Made by a program: the position numbers and the translations under genes. The notes below the pieces were generated by a model. The model was given only the letters and a program-made list of their open reading frames with translations. It was not told where the DNA came from and did not search any database. From the NCBI GenBank assembly GCA_020436935.1, contig JAGQWX010000055.1:1-33620 (forward strand): DNA of 33,620 bases. The letters are read 5' to 3'. Origin of the DNA: Saprospiraceae bacterium. Lineage in GTDB: Bacteria > Bacteroidota > Bacteroidia > Chitinophagales > Saprospiraceae. Within the stretch, counting starts at the first letter, position 1, and every line of letters begins with the position of its first letter. This document shows, piece by piece, positions 8,180-22,871 of this stretch.

Positions 8180-8310
8180 GTTTGTTGTTTAGATCAAAAA
8201 TGGGTGAATTAATTTGAGGGTGCAAGATGGGGATTTTTTTGGTTTTGGGGGGTAGGTGTTAGGTGTTAGGTAGATTGGCTTTTAGCTGTTAGCTGTTAGC
8301 TTTTATATGA

Positions 8311-8620
8311 CGCTTCTTTGAAGCTGGGGGATGGGAGGTATTAGGTGTATGGTAGATTGGCTTTTAGAGATTAGCTGTTAGCTATTAGCTTTTTTGGGGC
8401 GCTTCTTTGAAGCTGGGGAGGTGTTAGGTGTTAGGTTTTAGATTTTCTATGACGCTTCTTTGAAGCTGGGGGAGTTGGCTATTTGCTTTTTTATGGCGCT
8501 TCTTTGGAAGCTGAGGGAGTTGGTTATAAGCTATTGGATTTTGGGGGCACTTCTTTGAACTTGGGGGATGGTAGGTCTTAGGTTTTAGATTTTTTTATTA
8601 CGCTTCTTTGAAGCTGGGGG
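8311..8620. repeat. Six copies of a GCTTC-TTT-GAAGC palindrome
   Basis: The phrase CGCTTCTTTGAAGCTGGGGG occurs at 8311, 8400, 8453, 8497 (one inserted base), 8548 (imperfect) and 8601, with spacings of 89, 53, 44, 51 and 53 bases. Each copy contains a 5-bp stem with a TTT loop followed by a G-run. Intervening DNA is built from TAGGTGTTAGGT- and TTAGCTGTTAGC-type phrases. The copies are all in one orientation. Confidence 0.75.
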
Positions 8621-8682
8621 AGTTGGCTATTAGCTGTTAGCTTATTTGAACAGGTATTTGTTTTTAATAGAACCACTCAAGA

Positions 8683-18863: not shown

Positions 18864-19147
18864 GGGGTATATGTTAGGTGTTAGGTGTTAGGTTTTAGAT
18901 ATTAGGTATTGAGGTTTAGTGACACCTTATTGGTTTTGTTCATATGAAAATGAATAACACATTAGAAATTAAATTGGGTATTTTTATAGCTCAAATAAAG
19001 TCAGTCTTTGGTCTTTGGTAAGAGGGAGGTTGGAGGAGGGAGATCGGAGAAGGGAGAAATGCGGGCGGATTCTCTTTAGGGCCAGGGTAGAGCGAGGCAA
19101 TATTGTGGACGTCTTTGGTCTTTGGAAAATTATTGATTGATATACTT

Positions 19148-19176
19148 CGGTGGCTGAGCGGAGTCGAAGCCTGGGC
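19148..19176. repeat. GGTGGCTGAGCGGAGTCGAAGCC-type dispersed repeat, copy 1
   Basis: The phrase starts CGGTGGCTGAGCGGAGTCGA and ends AGCCTGGGC; its ends GGCT/AGCC make it an imperfect palindrome. Phrases of this kind are scattered between genes in many Bacteroidota genomes. A second, mutated copy is at 19487-19512. Confidence 0.55.
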
Positions 19177-19486
19177 TTTGGCTTTTTTTTTGGATGTTGG
19201 CGTTTTAGCGTTTTGGTGTTTTGGTAGGAGGTCTTAAGTTTCAGGTGTCAGGTATTAGATTTTTGATACGTCATGAAAAACGTCTCCACGAGCCTTTAAC
19301 TTTTAACCTTAAATAAGTAACCCTTTTTCTCTCGCAATGGCGCAAAGAGGTGTTGAAGATTGAGTACGAAAAGAATTTAGAAGTCACCGTTAAGGCATTA
19401 AGATTCCTTAGGATTTTTATTTCGCTTAAACCGGAAAGTTATAAACCCTTAAACAAAATAATTCGTAATTGAAGATTAAAATGACT

Positions 19487-19512
19487 CAGGTGGCTGAGCT
19501 GAGTCGGAGCCA
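19487..19512. repeat. GGTGGCTGAGC-type dispersed repeat, copy 2
   Basis: CAGGTGGCTGAGCTGAGTCG followed by GAGCCA differs from copy 1 (19148-19176) by a few substitutions and has the same orientation. It falls inside a spurious 87-codon frame, which argues against that frame being a gene. Confidence 0.55.
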
Positions 19513-19758
19513 GTGTGGTTACTTTCTCGCAAAGGAGCTCATTCACTTTCAGCGAAAATCTGCGGGCTACTCTGCGTCTATCAGCGGGAAAAACAGCCTG
19601 TCTTTGGTCTTTAGGGAGATGGGAGATGGGAGGTGTTTTGAGCTGCTTCTCAATAGTTTTCCTGAGCATACATCCGAAACATTAATTAGTCTCGTAATTA
19701 TCTTGAAGCAGACAATTTGGCTGTTTTTCTAAATTTCAATGGTCTAAGTCCTGTTCGA

Positions 19759-20159: not shown

Positions 20160-21227
20160 ATGTCAGTCCATCAGAAAACAAAATCACTTTCCGCAAGAGG
20201 CGAACGCTTATCTGACACTTTTGTGCAGCTCAGTGTCTTAAACGGTAAAGAAGCCTCAGAACTCGATATACCGAAGTTTAGTGAAAAGATCAAAACTTCA
20301 GGTTTTCAAGGTCTCAAACCCGTTGGCGCTGACATTTTCCAGCTCAATATCGGTAAGCTTTGCAATCAGACCTGTGCCCATTGCCATGTGGATGCCGGAC
20401 CGGATAAAAAACACGAAATGATGACCAGAGCGGACCTGGAGACTTGTCTGCGTATCATCGAAAAATACAATTACAAAACGGTGGACATCACCGGTGGTGC
20501 ACCGGAGCTTCACAGCGAATTCAAGTGGTTTGTTGAATCCTGCAGAGCCATGGGAAAAGAGGTAATTGACAGGTGTAACCTCACAGTCATTCTATCCAAC
20601 AAAAAATACCACGATCTGCCACAGTGGTTTGCAGAAAACAAGGTCAAACTCATTTCATCTCTACCCTACTTTTCAAAAGTGAGGACAGATTCACAAAGAG
20701 GAGACGGAGTATTTGAAGATTCCATCATGGCGCTCCAGATGCTCAATGCTGTTGGCTATGGAAAACCCGGCACGGGACTGACCATCGATTTGGTATATAA
20801 TCCCTCAGGTGCATTTTTACCTGGTGCTCAGGAGGGCCTTGAGAAAGAATTCAAGCAGCAATTGCTCAGAAGATATGGCATAGAGTTCAATCAACTTTTT
20901 GCCATTACCAATATGCCGATCAGTAGATTTCTGGAGTATCTGCTCGATTCCGGCAATTATGAGACTTATATGCACGAGCTGGTGAATGCTTACAATCCGG
21001 CAACTGTAGCCAACGTCATGTGCAGGAATATGATTTCTGTTTCGTGGGATGGCCATGTGTACGATTGCGACTTCAACCAAATGCTGGATTTGAAAGTAGC
21101 AGGAAGCTCAAAACACATATCTACATATGACCATGACGACATCATTTCCAGACAGATCGTTTTGAACCAGCATTGCTATGGTTGCACAGCAGGAGCTGGG
21201 TCATCCTGCGGCGGCGAGGTGCTTTAA
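20160..21227 (+). CDS. arsS: Arsenosugar biosynthesis radical SAM protein ArsS
   Basis: A 355-residue radical SAM enzyme. The [4Fe-4S] motif is CNQTCAHC (Cys68, Cys72, Cys75) in QLNIGKLCNQTCAHCHVDAG, followed by the SAM-binding VDITGGAPEL strand. The C-terminal Cys-rich domain contains VMCRNMISVSWDGHVYDCDFNQML and ends in HCYGCTAGAGSSCGGEVL, the signature of the family. Some members carry selenocysteine in that tail; here all positions read as Cys. Characterised ArsS transfers a 5'-deoxyadenosyl group to dimethylarsenic, the committed step towards arsenosugars. ArsM, which makes the dimethylarsenic, is not in this window. The gene follows the AhpD-like gene by 8 bases. Directly downstream begins the palindromic array. 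Confidence 0.92.
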   Translation: MSVHQKTKSLSARGERLSDTFVQLSVLNGKEASELDIPKFSEKIKTSGFQGLKPVGADIFQLNIGKLCNQTCAHCHVDAGPDKKHEMMTRADLETCLRIIEKYNYKTVDITGGAPELHSEFKWFVESCRAMGKEVIDRCNLTVILSNKKYHDLPQWFAENKVKLISSLPYFSKVRTDSQRGDGVFEDSIMALQMLNAVGYGKPGTGLTIDLVYNPSGAFLPGAQEGLEKEFKQQLLRRYGIEFNQLFAITNMPISRFLEYLLDSGNYETYMHELVNAYNPATVANVMCRNMISVSWDGHVYDCDFNQMLDLKVAGSSKHISTYDHDDIISRQIVLNQHCYGCTAGAGSSCGGEVL

Positions 21228-21860
21228 GTTAGATGAGTATCACTGGACTTGATGCAGCTTTTTACTAGAACTTAGAGGATTTGTACGACAAGGACGATTG
21301 GTTTGGTTTGGACGATTGTGATTCTCATGTGGCGGGCTTCCCTCCCAATTGGACGAATGTGATTCACATGTGGCAGGCTTCCTGCCCAATTAGACGAATG
21401 TGATTCACATGTGGTTTCTCGTTCCCAGATGATTGGACGAATGTGATTCACATGTGCTCTTGATTCTCAGTTGATTGGACGAATGTGATTCAAATGTGCT
21501 ATTCGCTCTAAGTTGATTGGACGAATGTGATTCACATGTGGTTTTCGTTCTCATTTGATTGGACGAATGTGATTCACATGTGGCGGGATTCATTCCCAAT
21601 TGGACGAATGTGATTCACATGTGGTGGGCTTCCCTCCCAATTGGACGAATGTGATTCATATGTGGTGGGATTGCCTCTTAATTGGACGAATGTGATTCAC
21701 ATGTGCTCATACCTCCAAAAGGTTGCCAATGGGACTATCCCATTTCAAGTTTTTTTATTCTCTTTTACCTTTCAATCTTCTCCTCCACTAATCTTTTCAT
21801 TTAATTTCTTTAATGGTATTACCTCTTTTAAATTAATCCCAGTCTCATTACCTTAGCGAA
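21228..21860. other. Intergenic region holding the palindromic array
   Basis: No gene is accepted. 21228-21309 carries partial seeds of the array unit (GGACGATTGG at 21292). 21310-21706 is the array itself. 21707-21840 is T/C-rich on the plus strand and probably includes the promoter of the hydrolase at 21861, though no clear -7 box was found. 21841-21860 is the first arm and loop of an inverted repeat that includes the start codon. Confidence 0.7.
21310..21706. repeat. Ten-unit array of a 13-bp palindrome with 41-43 bp period
   Basis: Ten 23-base units start at 21310, 21351, 21392, 21435, 21477, 21519, 21561, 21602, 21643 and 21684. Each begins GGACGA and contains the palindrome ATGTGA-T-TCACAT followed by GTGG or GTGC; only units 1, 3, 5 and 9 have a substitution. 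Spacers of 18-20 bases fall in two classes: a pyrimidine-rich CGGGCTTCCCTCCCAATT type (after units 1, 2, 7, 8, 9) and a TTTTCGTTCTCATTTGATT type (after units 3-6). The period is close to four helical turns, so all palindromes face the same side of the DNA. Spacers resemble each other, which excludes CRISPR. Confidence 0.92.
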
Positions 21861-21868
21861 ATGAGACT
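21841..21868 (+). promoter_or_regulatory. Inverted repeat enclosing the start codon
   Basis: AGTCTCAT (21841-21848) and ATGAGACT (21861-21868) are perfectly complementary 8-base arms around a 12-base loop (TACCTTAGCGAA). In the mRNA the hairpin would place the ATG of the GH113-like gene in the stem and the ribosome-binding region in the loop, which could limit translation. Confidence 0.5.
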
Positions 21869-22871
21869 ACTAATTCTGTTTTTTGTATTGCTTTTGGGTG
21901 GAAAAGAATATACTAATCCACCAAAGCCATCATTTGATATACGGGGCATGACCATGGTAGCTCCTCATCAACCAATAGACATCGAGCCGCTACACAAAAT
22001 CAAGCACACCAACTCTAACTGGGTAGCCCTTGTACCCTATGCATTCCAAAGAGGAGAAGATTGTGTGGTGCAATACAACAGCAATGGGAGATGGTGGGGA
22101 GAGAATATTGAAGGCATCAGAGGTTCAGTGGATCTAGCCAAAAGGGCAGGCTTAAAAATCATGCTCAAACCTCAAATTTACATACACGGAAAGTGGACAG
22201 GAGATATTGAGTGCAATACCGAATCGTTCTGGAAGAGTTGGGAAGAGAGTTACACCAAATTCATCATGCAATTTGCGAGCATAGCCCAGGAAAAAGAAAT
22301 TGAGATGCTATGTTTTGGAACTGAACTGAAAAATCCGATTAAGGAACGTCCTGCATATTTTGTGCAATTGATCAAAGACATCAGGAAAATCTACAAGGGT
22401 CAACTCACTTATGCAGCCAACTGGGACGACTATGATATGGTCAAATTCTGGAAAGACCTGGACTATATTGGCATTAATGCATATTGCCCATTGTCTGAAA
22501 AAGATACACCAACTGTTGCTGAATTGGCAAACAAATGGAAACCCCATCTAAAGAATATGGAAAAGTTTTCAAAAAAGTTCGGTAAAAAAATCTTATTCAC
22601 TGAATATGGATACTTGCCCATAAATGGTAGTACGCTTAAACCATGGGAGGTTCCCCATCAACTTGAAAAGTATGAATTAAACGAAATGGTTCAAGCCAAT
22701 GCTTTTGAAAGCTTGTTCTCTTGTTTGTCAACAAAGTCCTGGTGGGCCGGTGGTTTCATTTGGAAGTGGTTCCCCATGTCAAGCAATGGACGCAATGGCA
22801 AACCACACAAAGATTTTACCCCTCAGGACAAATTGGCCCAAAAAGTGATCGAACGCTGGTATTGCAGATGA
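21861..22871 (+). CDS. Secreted TIM-barrel glycoside hydrolase, GH113-like
   Basis: A 336-residue protein with a short hydrophobic leader (MRLLILFFVLLLGG). The fold reads as a (beta/alpha)8 glycosidase: NWVALVPYAFQ, AGLKIMLKPQIYIHGKWTGDI, EMLCFGTELKN with probable acid/base Glu155, QLTYAANWDDYD, DYIGINAYCPLS, KKILFTEYGYLP with probable nucleophile Glu248, and WWAGGFIWKWFP. The two strand-end glutamates and the W-K-W close fit GH113 and related clan A enzymes, whose known activity is beta-mannanase. The actual substrate is uncertain. The gene stands alone between the palindromic array and the convergent NIPSNAP gene, only 20 bases away. Its start codon is in a hairpin. No carbohydrate-binding module or sorting tail is attached. 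Confidence 0.8.
   Translation: MRLLILFFVLLLGGKEYTNPPKPSFDIRGMTMVAPHQPIDIEPLHKIKHTNSNWVALVPYAFQRGEDCVVQYNSNGRWWGENIEGIRGSVDLAKRAGLKIMLKPQIYIHGKWTGDIECNTESFWKSWEESYTKFIMQFASIAQEKEIEMLCFGTELKNPIKERPAYFVQLIKDIRKIYKGQLTYAANWDDYDMVKFWKDLDYIGINAYCPLSEKDTPTVAELANKWKPHLKNMEKFSKKFGKKILFTEYGYLPINGSTLKPWEVPHQLEKYELNEMVQANAFESLFSCLSTKSWWAGGFIWKWFPMSSNGRNGKPHKDFTPQDKLAQKVIERWYCR

Follow-up and report, generated by a model that had tools for sequence, protein, structure and literature searches.

A dispersed STAR-type family of intergenic direct-repeat arrays, found so far in one Saprospiraceae genome

Among described bacterial repeats, the closest counterparts of the array analysed here are the STAR elements of Staphylococcus aureus, intergenic 14-base motifs separated by spacers of ~40 bases, which are alike within a locus, distinct between loci and sometimes of two types (PMC3532100). 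STAR loci differ between species, and in 2012 their function and mode of spread were called unknown (PMC3532100); in 2017, STAR-like elements were listed among false CRISPRs, with their meaning left open (PMC5294841). Nothing further on STAR function or spread was found in later literature, as judged by titles and the beginnings of abstracts. A 2026 S. aureus paper reportedly mentions STAR elements. The REP/REPIN sequences associated with RAYT are short, palindromic, intergenic and dispersed. A looser parallel is offered by the Neisserial dRS3 repeats, ATTCCC(N8)GGGAAT, present in almost 700 copies alongside RS blocks that form families of 30–160 bases; one dRS3 type is the target of a phage integrase (PMC3898611). 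A literature search for tandem repeats in Saprospiraceae found no report, one for palindromic intergenic arrays in Bacteroidetes found nothing on point (again by titles and abstract beginnings), and one for binding-site arrays gave PMC3532100 as the one relevant match.

The window, the whole 33,620-nucleotide stretch of DNA analysed here, carries ten units of GGACGAATGTGATTCACATGT on the forward strand at 21310–21704. The initial annotation, made from the letters of this stretch, had described ten near-identical units every 41–43 bp, and both unit number and spacing stand: the unit starts run from 21310 to 21684 in steps of 41, 41, 43, 42, 42, 42, 41, 41 and 41, and TRF reports a period of 41 with 9.6 copies and a score of 346. 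Unit 2 (21351–21371), unit 4 (21435–21455), unit 6 (21519–21539), unit 7 (21561–21581), unit 8 (21602–21622) and unit 10 (21684–21704) are exact; unit 3 (21392–21412), unit 5 (21477–21497) and unit 9 (21643–21663) have one mismatch each, and unit 1 (21310–21330) has two. The 13-base palindrome ATGTGATTCACAT is exact in 7 of the 10 units, with one mismatch in two others and two mismatches in unit 1. Allowing up to two mismatches on both strands, it has 19 matches in the window, every one inside the array, against 2.06 expected, and none of 100 shuffles reaches 19. The spacers, read by eye, fall into two classes in the order A-A-B-B-B-B-A-A-A, just as the initial annotation gave it.

The array starts 82 bases after the stop codon of arsS (20160–21227, forward strand), which encodes an arsenosugar biosynthesis radical SAM protein (TIGR04167, 433.8 bits against a cut-off of 300), and ends 156 bases before a glycoside hydrolase family 113 (GH113) gene (21861–22871, forward strand; PF22612, 4.6e-48). 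No evidence was found for a functional link of the array to either gene. Nine of the 11 best matches to arsS from named genomes, among 80 of 589 relatives, come from Saprospiraceae MAGs at 62–72% identity, and the other two from one Chitinophagales MAG and one Pedobacter, which makes the host a probable Saprospiraceae member. At relatives' arsS, sucD and ddl, searched mostly over ~1.5 kb per side, no homologues of the GH113, DUF202 or helix-turn-helix (HTH) genes that adjoin the arrays of this genome were found at E ≤ 1e-10.

When up to three mismatches are allowed, the 22-base unit has 68 matches in the organism's own genome (5,817,718 bases in 181 contigs), versus none in the reversed control, and all 68 fall in eight intergenic arrays with unrelated neighbour genes. 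This repeat family is referred to below as F1. Its arrays lie on contigs 132 (the window), 10, 9, 109, 129, 110, 119, 147, 153 and 169. Contigs 10 and 9, and likewise 109 and 129, are each counted as carrying one array because the contigs break inside arrays and each pair has a common spacer class; from this pairing of contig ends we infer eight loci. To call all arrays intergenic is to take ORFs of ~70–90 codons that overlap three of them as spurious. The array on contig 110 has 15 units, while that on contig 147 has only two, 75 bases apart. Besides arsS and GH113, both named by family scans, the left and right neighbours are sucD and a DUF202 gene; ddl and an ArsR-type HTH gene (contigs 109/129); cysS and a ThuA gene; a small gene without a family above cut-off and a radical SAM gene; a hybrid sensor and a SusC-type gene; a galactonate-dehydratase-like and a dipeptidase-like gene; and an unnamed gene and rpoC. 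The DUF202, HTH, ThuA, radical SAM and dehydratase assignments come from family scans, and sucD, ddl, cysS, the hybrid sensor, the SusC-type gene, the dipeptidase and rpoC were read from translations.

No common neighbour function or fixed promoter position was seen among the scanned neighbours of the eight loci. The left-hand gene is co-oriented with the array at six loci and points away at two, and the right-hand gene is co-oriented at six and convergent at two. Solitary sites show no excess: AATGTGATTCACAT at up to one mismatch has 64 matches in the genome, 62 within arrays and two outside, with two in the control as well. The initial annotation had held that a single conserved array beside arsS or at one replication-related site would support a specific function, and that many similar arrays with unrelated neighbours would point to a neutral tandem repeat; the whole-genome search found the latter situation, at eight loci. 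A palindrome array between two genes could suggest an operator cluster for arsS or GH113, an iteron origin or a centromere, but arrays at eight places beside unrelated genes, two with a convergent right-hand gene, and the lack of a solitary-site excess make these explanations extremely improbable now that a single-locus role has failed. An operator for arsS alone, an iteron origin and a centromere were accordingly dropped.

A second family, F3, came to light in a tandem-repeat scan of part of the genome. Its core, GACGTATATGTCACATTTACT, has 137 copies at up to three mismatches, spread over many contigs of the genome (for example at L233:2565–3321 and L222:2573–3375), and one in the control. 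In 100 of the 137 places and the loci fetched in addition, at least 13 loci have two or more good copies and at least seven have one; two of these single-copy loci lie within 250 bases of a contig end. The single F3 copy on contig 147 has a decayed second copy, and F1 and F3 copies interleave on that contig. The period is 45–85 bases in 11 F3 arrays, and from one locus to another most spacers resemble each other no more than by chance, with contigs 2 and 122 as the clearest exception. Some F3 copies stand alone in unrelated contexts, which suggests that a block of ~27 bases can move by itself. An alignment of the F1 and F3 cores has 14 of 16 bases identical with one 2-base gap (shuffle p = 0.0086, post hoc and uncorrected, for one of six pairs compared), and the two palindromes sit at different places of this alignment.

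Other repeats accompany these families. A third, smaller family, GCGCTTCTTTGAAGCTGGGGGA, with the palindromic core GCTTC-TTT-GAAGC, is present 14 times in the genome when up to three mismatches are allowed, and not at all in the control; it occurs in the window at 8310–8647 and on contigs 55, 91, 137 and 156. On contig 156, three of four copies read GCTCC-TTT-GGAGC, a compensatory change. Low-complexity repeats of the TTAGGTGTTAGG and GGTGGCTGAGCGGAGTCGAAGCC types occupy 18872–19640 of the window and other intergenic stretches; the same types surround F3 copies on contigs 55, 88 and 122.

In 39 relatives, five of the same genus, only two single matches to the F1 unit, with three mismatches, were found (in genomes G009 and G018), and at up to two mismatches the unit is absent from 397 other genomes of the family, its own genome being the sole carrier among the 398 searched. 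For the F3 core, a search at up to two mismatches through 60 other family genomes, which included a single genome of the same genus but not G005, found no copy. Two 13-base cores in tandem, searched as an exact pattern, have no match in 84,980 species genomes, a collection that may omit the organism's own or very near records, and none in viral contigs, where single cores have no match either. Plasmid and phage records contain no match to the window array, and plasmid records none to the F3 array on contig 122; a phage or plasmid origin was rejected on these searches. The same-genus genome G005 has two arrays of a different palindrome, AGCCAA...TTGGCT, at L178:10629–10803 and L175:15963–16133, with periods of 54 and 52. 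Each array immediately precedes an ATPase_2 ORF or coincides with its beginning; both ORFs have matches to PDC-S27, a candidate defence family (E 1.1e-192 and 1.6e-196).

The F1 arrays have in common a core of ~27 bases with the consensus ATTGGACGAATGTGATTCACATGTKGY, and their spacers are mostly array-specific. Diversity within arrays was compared over full units of the commonest length with up to five core mismatches, to which the window array contributes 5 of 9 full units. The scored set has 19 members, comprising nine F1 pieces from seven loci and ten F3 arrays; the contig 147 array (two units), F3 array C120a (two units of one length), the F3 array of contig 88 and the two-unit F3 array C122b were left out. 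Core diversity is below spacer diversity in 19 of the 19 arrays or array halves, with means of 0.074 for cores and 0.234 for spacers in F1 and of 0.062 and 0.237 in F3, so that inside arrays spacer variation exceeds core variation three- to fourfold. This difference indicates that conservation continues after insertion and amplification. It agrees with the initial annotation that units are better kept than spacers, although the kept block is ~27 bases and thus wider than the palindrome on which that annotation had focused; its picture of growth by block duplication with constraint on the unit likewise remains a good reading. In single arrays the 21-base core does not in every case come out as the best-kept rotation (rank 2 of 46 to 23 of 63), partly because the kept block is wider.

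Between loci, spacers mostly lose their resemblance. The spacer score for seven F1 loci is 0.426 within arrays, 0.000 between arrays and -0.069 for shuffled sequences, and for 11 F3 arrays the corresponding values are 0.418, -0.109 and -0.137. Some shared spacer ancestry is faintly visible among the F1 arrays of contigs 132, 109/129, 110 and 119. These figures bear on a plain neutral minisatellite copied to several loci. Its appeal is that TRF calls a normal tandem repeat and that other tandem repeats occur in the scanned part of the genome, but core and spacer divergence rates differ greatly inside arrays, and in several array pairs the spacers are no more similar than shuffled sequence while the core is identical in kind. 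The initial annotation would have taken equal divergence of units and spacers in close strains as pointing to a neutral repeat; within arrays, units and spacers do not diverge equally, and a neutral minisatellite is improbable.

The initial annotation knew of no described element with this layout, yet it is that of the S. aureus STAR elements (PMC3532100). Dispersed intergenic direct-repeat arrays whose motif is kept across loci are seen at the eight F1 loci, spacers alike within and distinct between loci characterize both F1 and F3, and two spacer types at one locus occur in the window array. The STAR core, in contrast, is the GC-rich 14-base T(G/A/T)TGTTG(G/T)GGCCC(C/A), very different from the F1 core of ~27 bases. 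F1 spacers measure 19–22 bases between 21-base cores (steps of 40–43 with the core counted), whereas STAR spacers are of at least ~40 bases; the F3 steps are 45–85 bases. Repeat number varies between strains in STAR elements; for F1, searches of other genomes gave no second carrier of the unit. Unlike in the STAR description, two core families coexist in one genome, and two arrays precede ArsR-type genes. With the NIME/dRS3 repeats the arrays share ~20-base repeats with inverted ends in intergenic arrays, but in F1 and F3 each locus has spacers of its own, and neither core is a known integrase substrate (PMC3898611). The false CRISPRs resemble them in presenting a repeat-spacer appearance without spacer diversity, but form a bioinformatic category rather than a mechanism (PMC5294841). 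True CRISPRs differ in that the spacers of one F1 array are near-copies of each other, not diverse. By eye, the flanking ORFs showed no recognisable cas genes; family scans covered only part of these flanking genes. The window array belongs to a dispersed STAR-type intergenic direct-repeat family, found so far in one genome.

The initial annotation had placed all sites on one face of the DNA. The phase is indeed even in the window array, but over seven F1 loci the 61 steps comprise 25 of 40 bases, 29 of 41, six of 42 and one of 43, so that in several arrays successive sites rotate steadily round the helix. Given the 40-base steps in F1 and the variable steps of F3, helical phasing as a general rule was rejected. 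The palindromes themselves have shuffle p values of 0.02 in F1 and 0.048 in F3. Change per site in the arms compared with the rest of the core is 0.038 versus 0.039 in 72 F1 units and 0.020 versus 0.042 in 106 F3 units. Among pair cells, 26 are broken, seven half-kept and none compensated in F1, and 17 are broken, eight half-kept and none compensated in F3. A transcribed structured RNA, which short palindromes in series and an F3 arm change rate of half that in the remaining core would fit, is extremely improbable: there is no Rfam match at the gathering threshold, folding the window array gives z-scores of -1.51 and -0.78, and neither family has a compensated pair. An RNA element was rejected on these grounds.

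Palindromes of the REP/BIME kind moved by a RAYT (Y1) transposase deserve consideration because F1 is also dispersed, intergenic, palindromic and short, and because the genome has two Y1_Tnp genes. One of these, a RAYT-like gene at L043 (G000:C141:10284–13625), has long CTAAAG/CTTTAG palindromic repeats of its own on its flanks, with periods of 173–215. The F1 unit shows no link to either gene: in the 3.3 kb around each, the nearest F1-like site has at least 8 of 21 mismatches, and the similarity of F1 to the Y1 gene's own repeat is at chance level (p = 0.22). Together with the absence of hairpin covariation among the many broken pair cells, this renders such an origin very improbable, and it was rejected with the unit near neither Y1 gene.

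The best lead to a mechanism is a pair of genes adjoining the arrays. ArsR-type winged-helix genes encoding 119 residues each lie to the right of the F1 array on contigs 109/129 and of the F3 array on contig 122; the two proteins are paralogues (46 of 114 residues identical; PF12840), and their start codons follow the last core by 136 bases (F1, contig 129) and 121 bases (F3, contig 122), in the same orientation. The best of four matches of their profile to the PDB is the ArsR repressor 6j0e (5.2e-6), and both proteins score below the NCBIfam metalloregulator cut-off. In a search of 60 genomes at E ≤ 1e-7, the profile, which was built from these two proteins, matched only them in the home genome; the next match is one in G005 (1.2e-37), followed by a gap to 1.6e-12. 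In G005 the contig begins 77 bases ahead of the orthologue, too close for an array to be seen, and low-complexity words are all that this short stretch has in common with other G005 DNA. Both matches to this subfamily in the home genome have an array upstream of the regulator's own gene, each with a different core family, an observation made post hoc. With ~21 arrays and an estimated ~5,000 genes, the chance of two named genes both following an array is about 2 in 100,000; since the pair was picked after being seen, the association is a lead rather than proof. Beyond the F1 array and its HTH gene, the 3' end of ddl is repeated (L011:360–525 and L014:875–1040, 166 bases, 88.6% identity), as would be expected if a segment with both array and HTH gene had entered at this end of ddl or been duplicated together with it.

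Tentatively, the arrays may be clustered binding sites for a sequence-specific protein, perhaps the two ArsR-type paralogues. Slippage or unequal exchange would lengthen and shorten the arrays, spacers would drift with the locus, and use by a sequence-specific DNA-binding protein would keep the core constant. Each array would then be a cluster of 2–15 binding sites, with the contig 129 protein as candidate binder of the F1 core and the contig 122 protein of the F3 core, each paralogue serving its own family. Since the neighbours form no evident regulon, autoregulation combined with a general chromatin-like or titration role ranks highest among the roles such bound clusters might have, above local silencing and chromosome organisation. 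Against protein binding, the HTH link is post hoc and concerns two genes, and most array loci seen adjoin no regulator gene; other F3 arrays adjoin other regulator families, namely WYL, LysR and BlaI types at L227:1514–2506, L230:1677–2552 and L235:1627–1989. An asymmetric kept block wider than the palindrome, F1 arms no better kept than the rest and palindromes placed differently in F1 and F3 are odd features for a dimer operator. The varying rank of the 21-base core among the rotations of single arrays also counts against protein binding.

Protein binding is the most likely cause of core conservation, and nearly as likely is a selfish or near-neutral STAR-like repeat, whose core would be the substrate of a mobilising or recombining activity (a transposase, an integrase or core-core recombination). 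Exchange starting in matching cores would homogenise cores and leave spacers alone, with cellular function unneeded. This possibility draws on the STAR architecture itself, given what PMC3532100 says of STAR function and spread, on the restriction of the family to one genome so far, on the solitary F3 copies in unrelated contexts and on the scanned neighbours without shared function. Unit decay also speaks for it: at a limit of seven mismatches, F1 units at the array ends show more decay than those inside (2.50 versus 0.71, p = 0.0006), which fits homogenisation by exchange, although the effect is not significant at a limit of five mismatches (p = 0.12) and is not seen in F3. On the other side, no candidate mobiliser was found, the F1 unit being absent within ~1.5 kb of both Y1 transposase genes; core conservation continues inside arrays; and a selfish repeat does not predict the HTH association.

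A more specific form of protein binding, which the gene arrangement makes conceivable but which we consider unlikely, is a paired regulator-array system. The two ArsR-type paralogues would each have spread, or be tied to, their own array set, the cores would have diverged with the proteins, and the F1 and F3 arrays, scattered over the genome, would serve as clusters for nucleation or titration. If this were true, STAR-like elements would gain a protein partner, whereas the passages on STAR elements in PMC3532100 and PMC5294841 name none. F1 and F3 show the STAR-like layout in Bacteroidota with a wholly different core, and this suggests that such intergenic elements form a wider class in bacteria. 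With two such families in one genome, each having a member beside a paralogous HTH gene, binding of the cores is directly testable.
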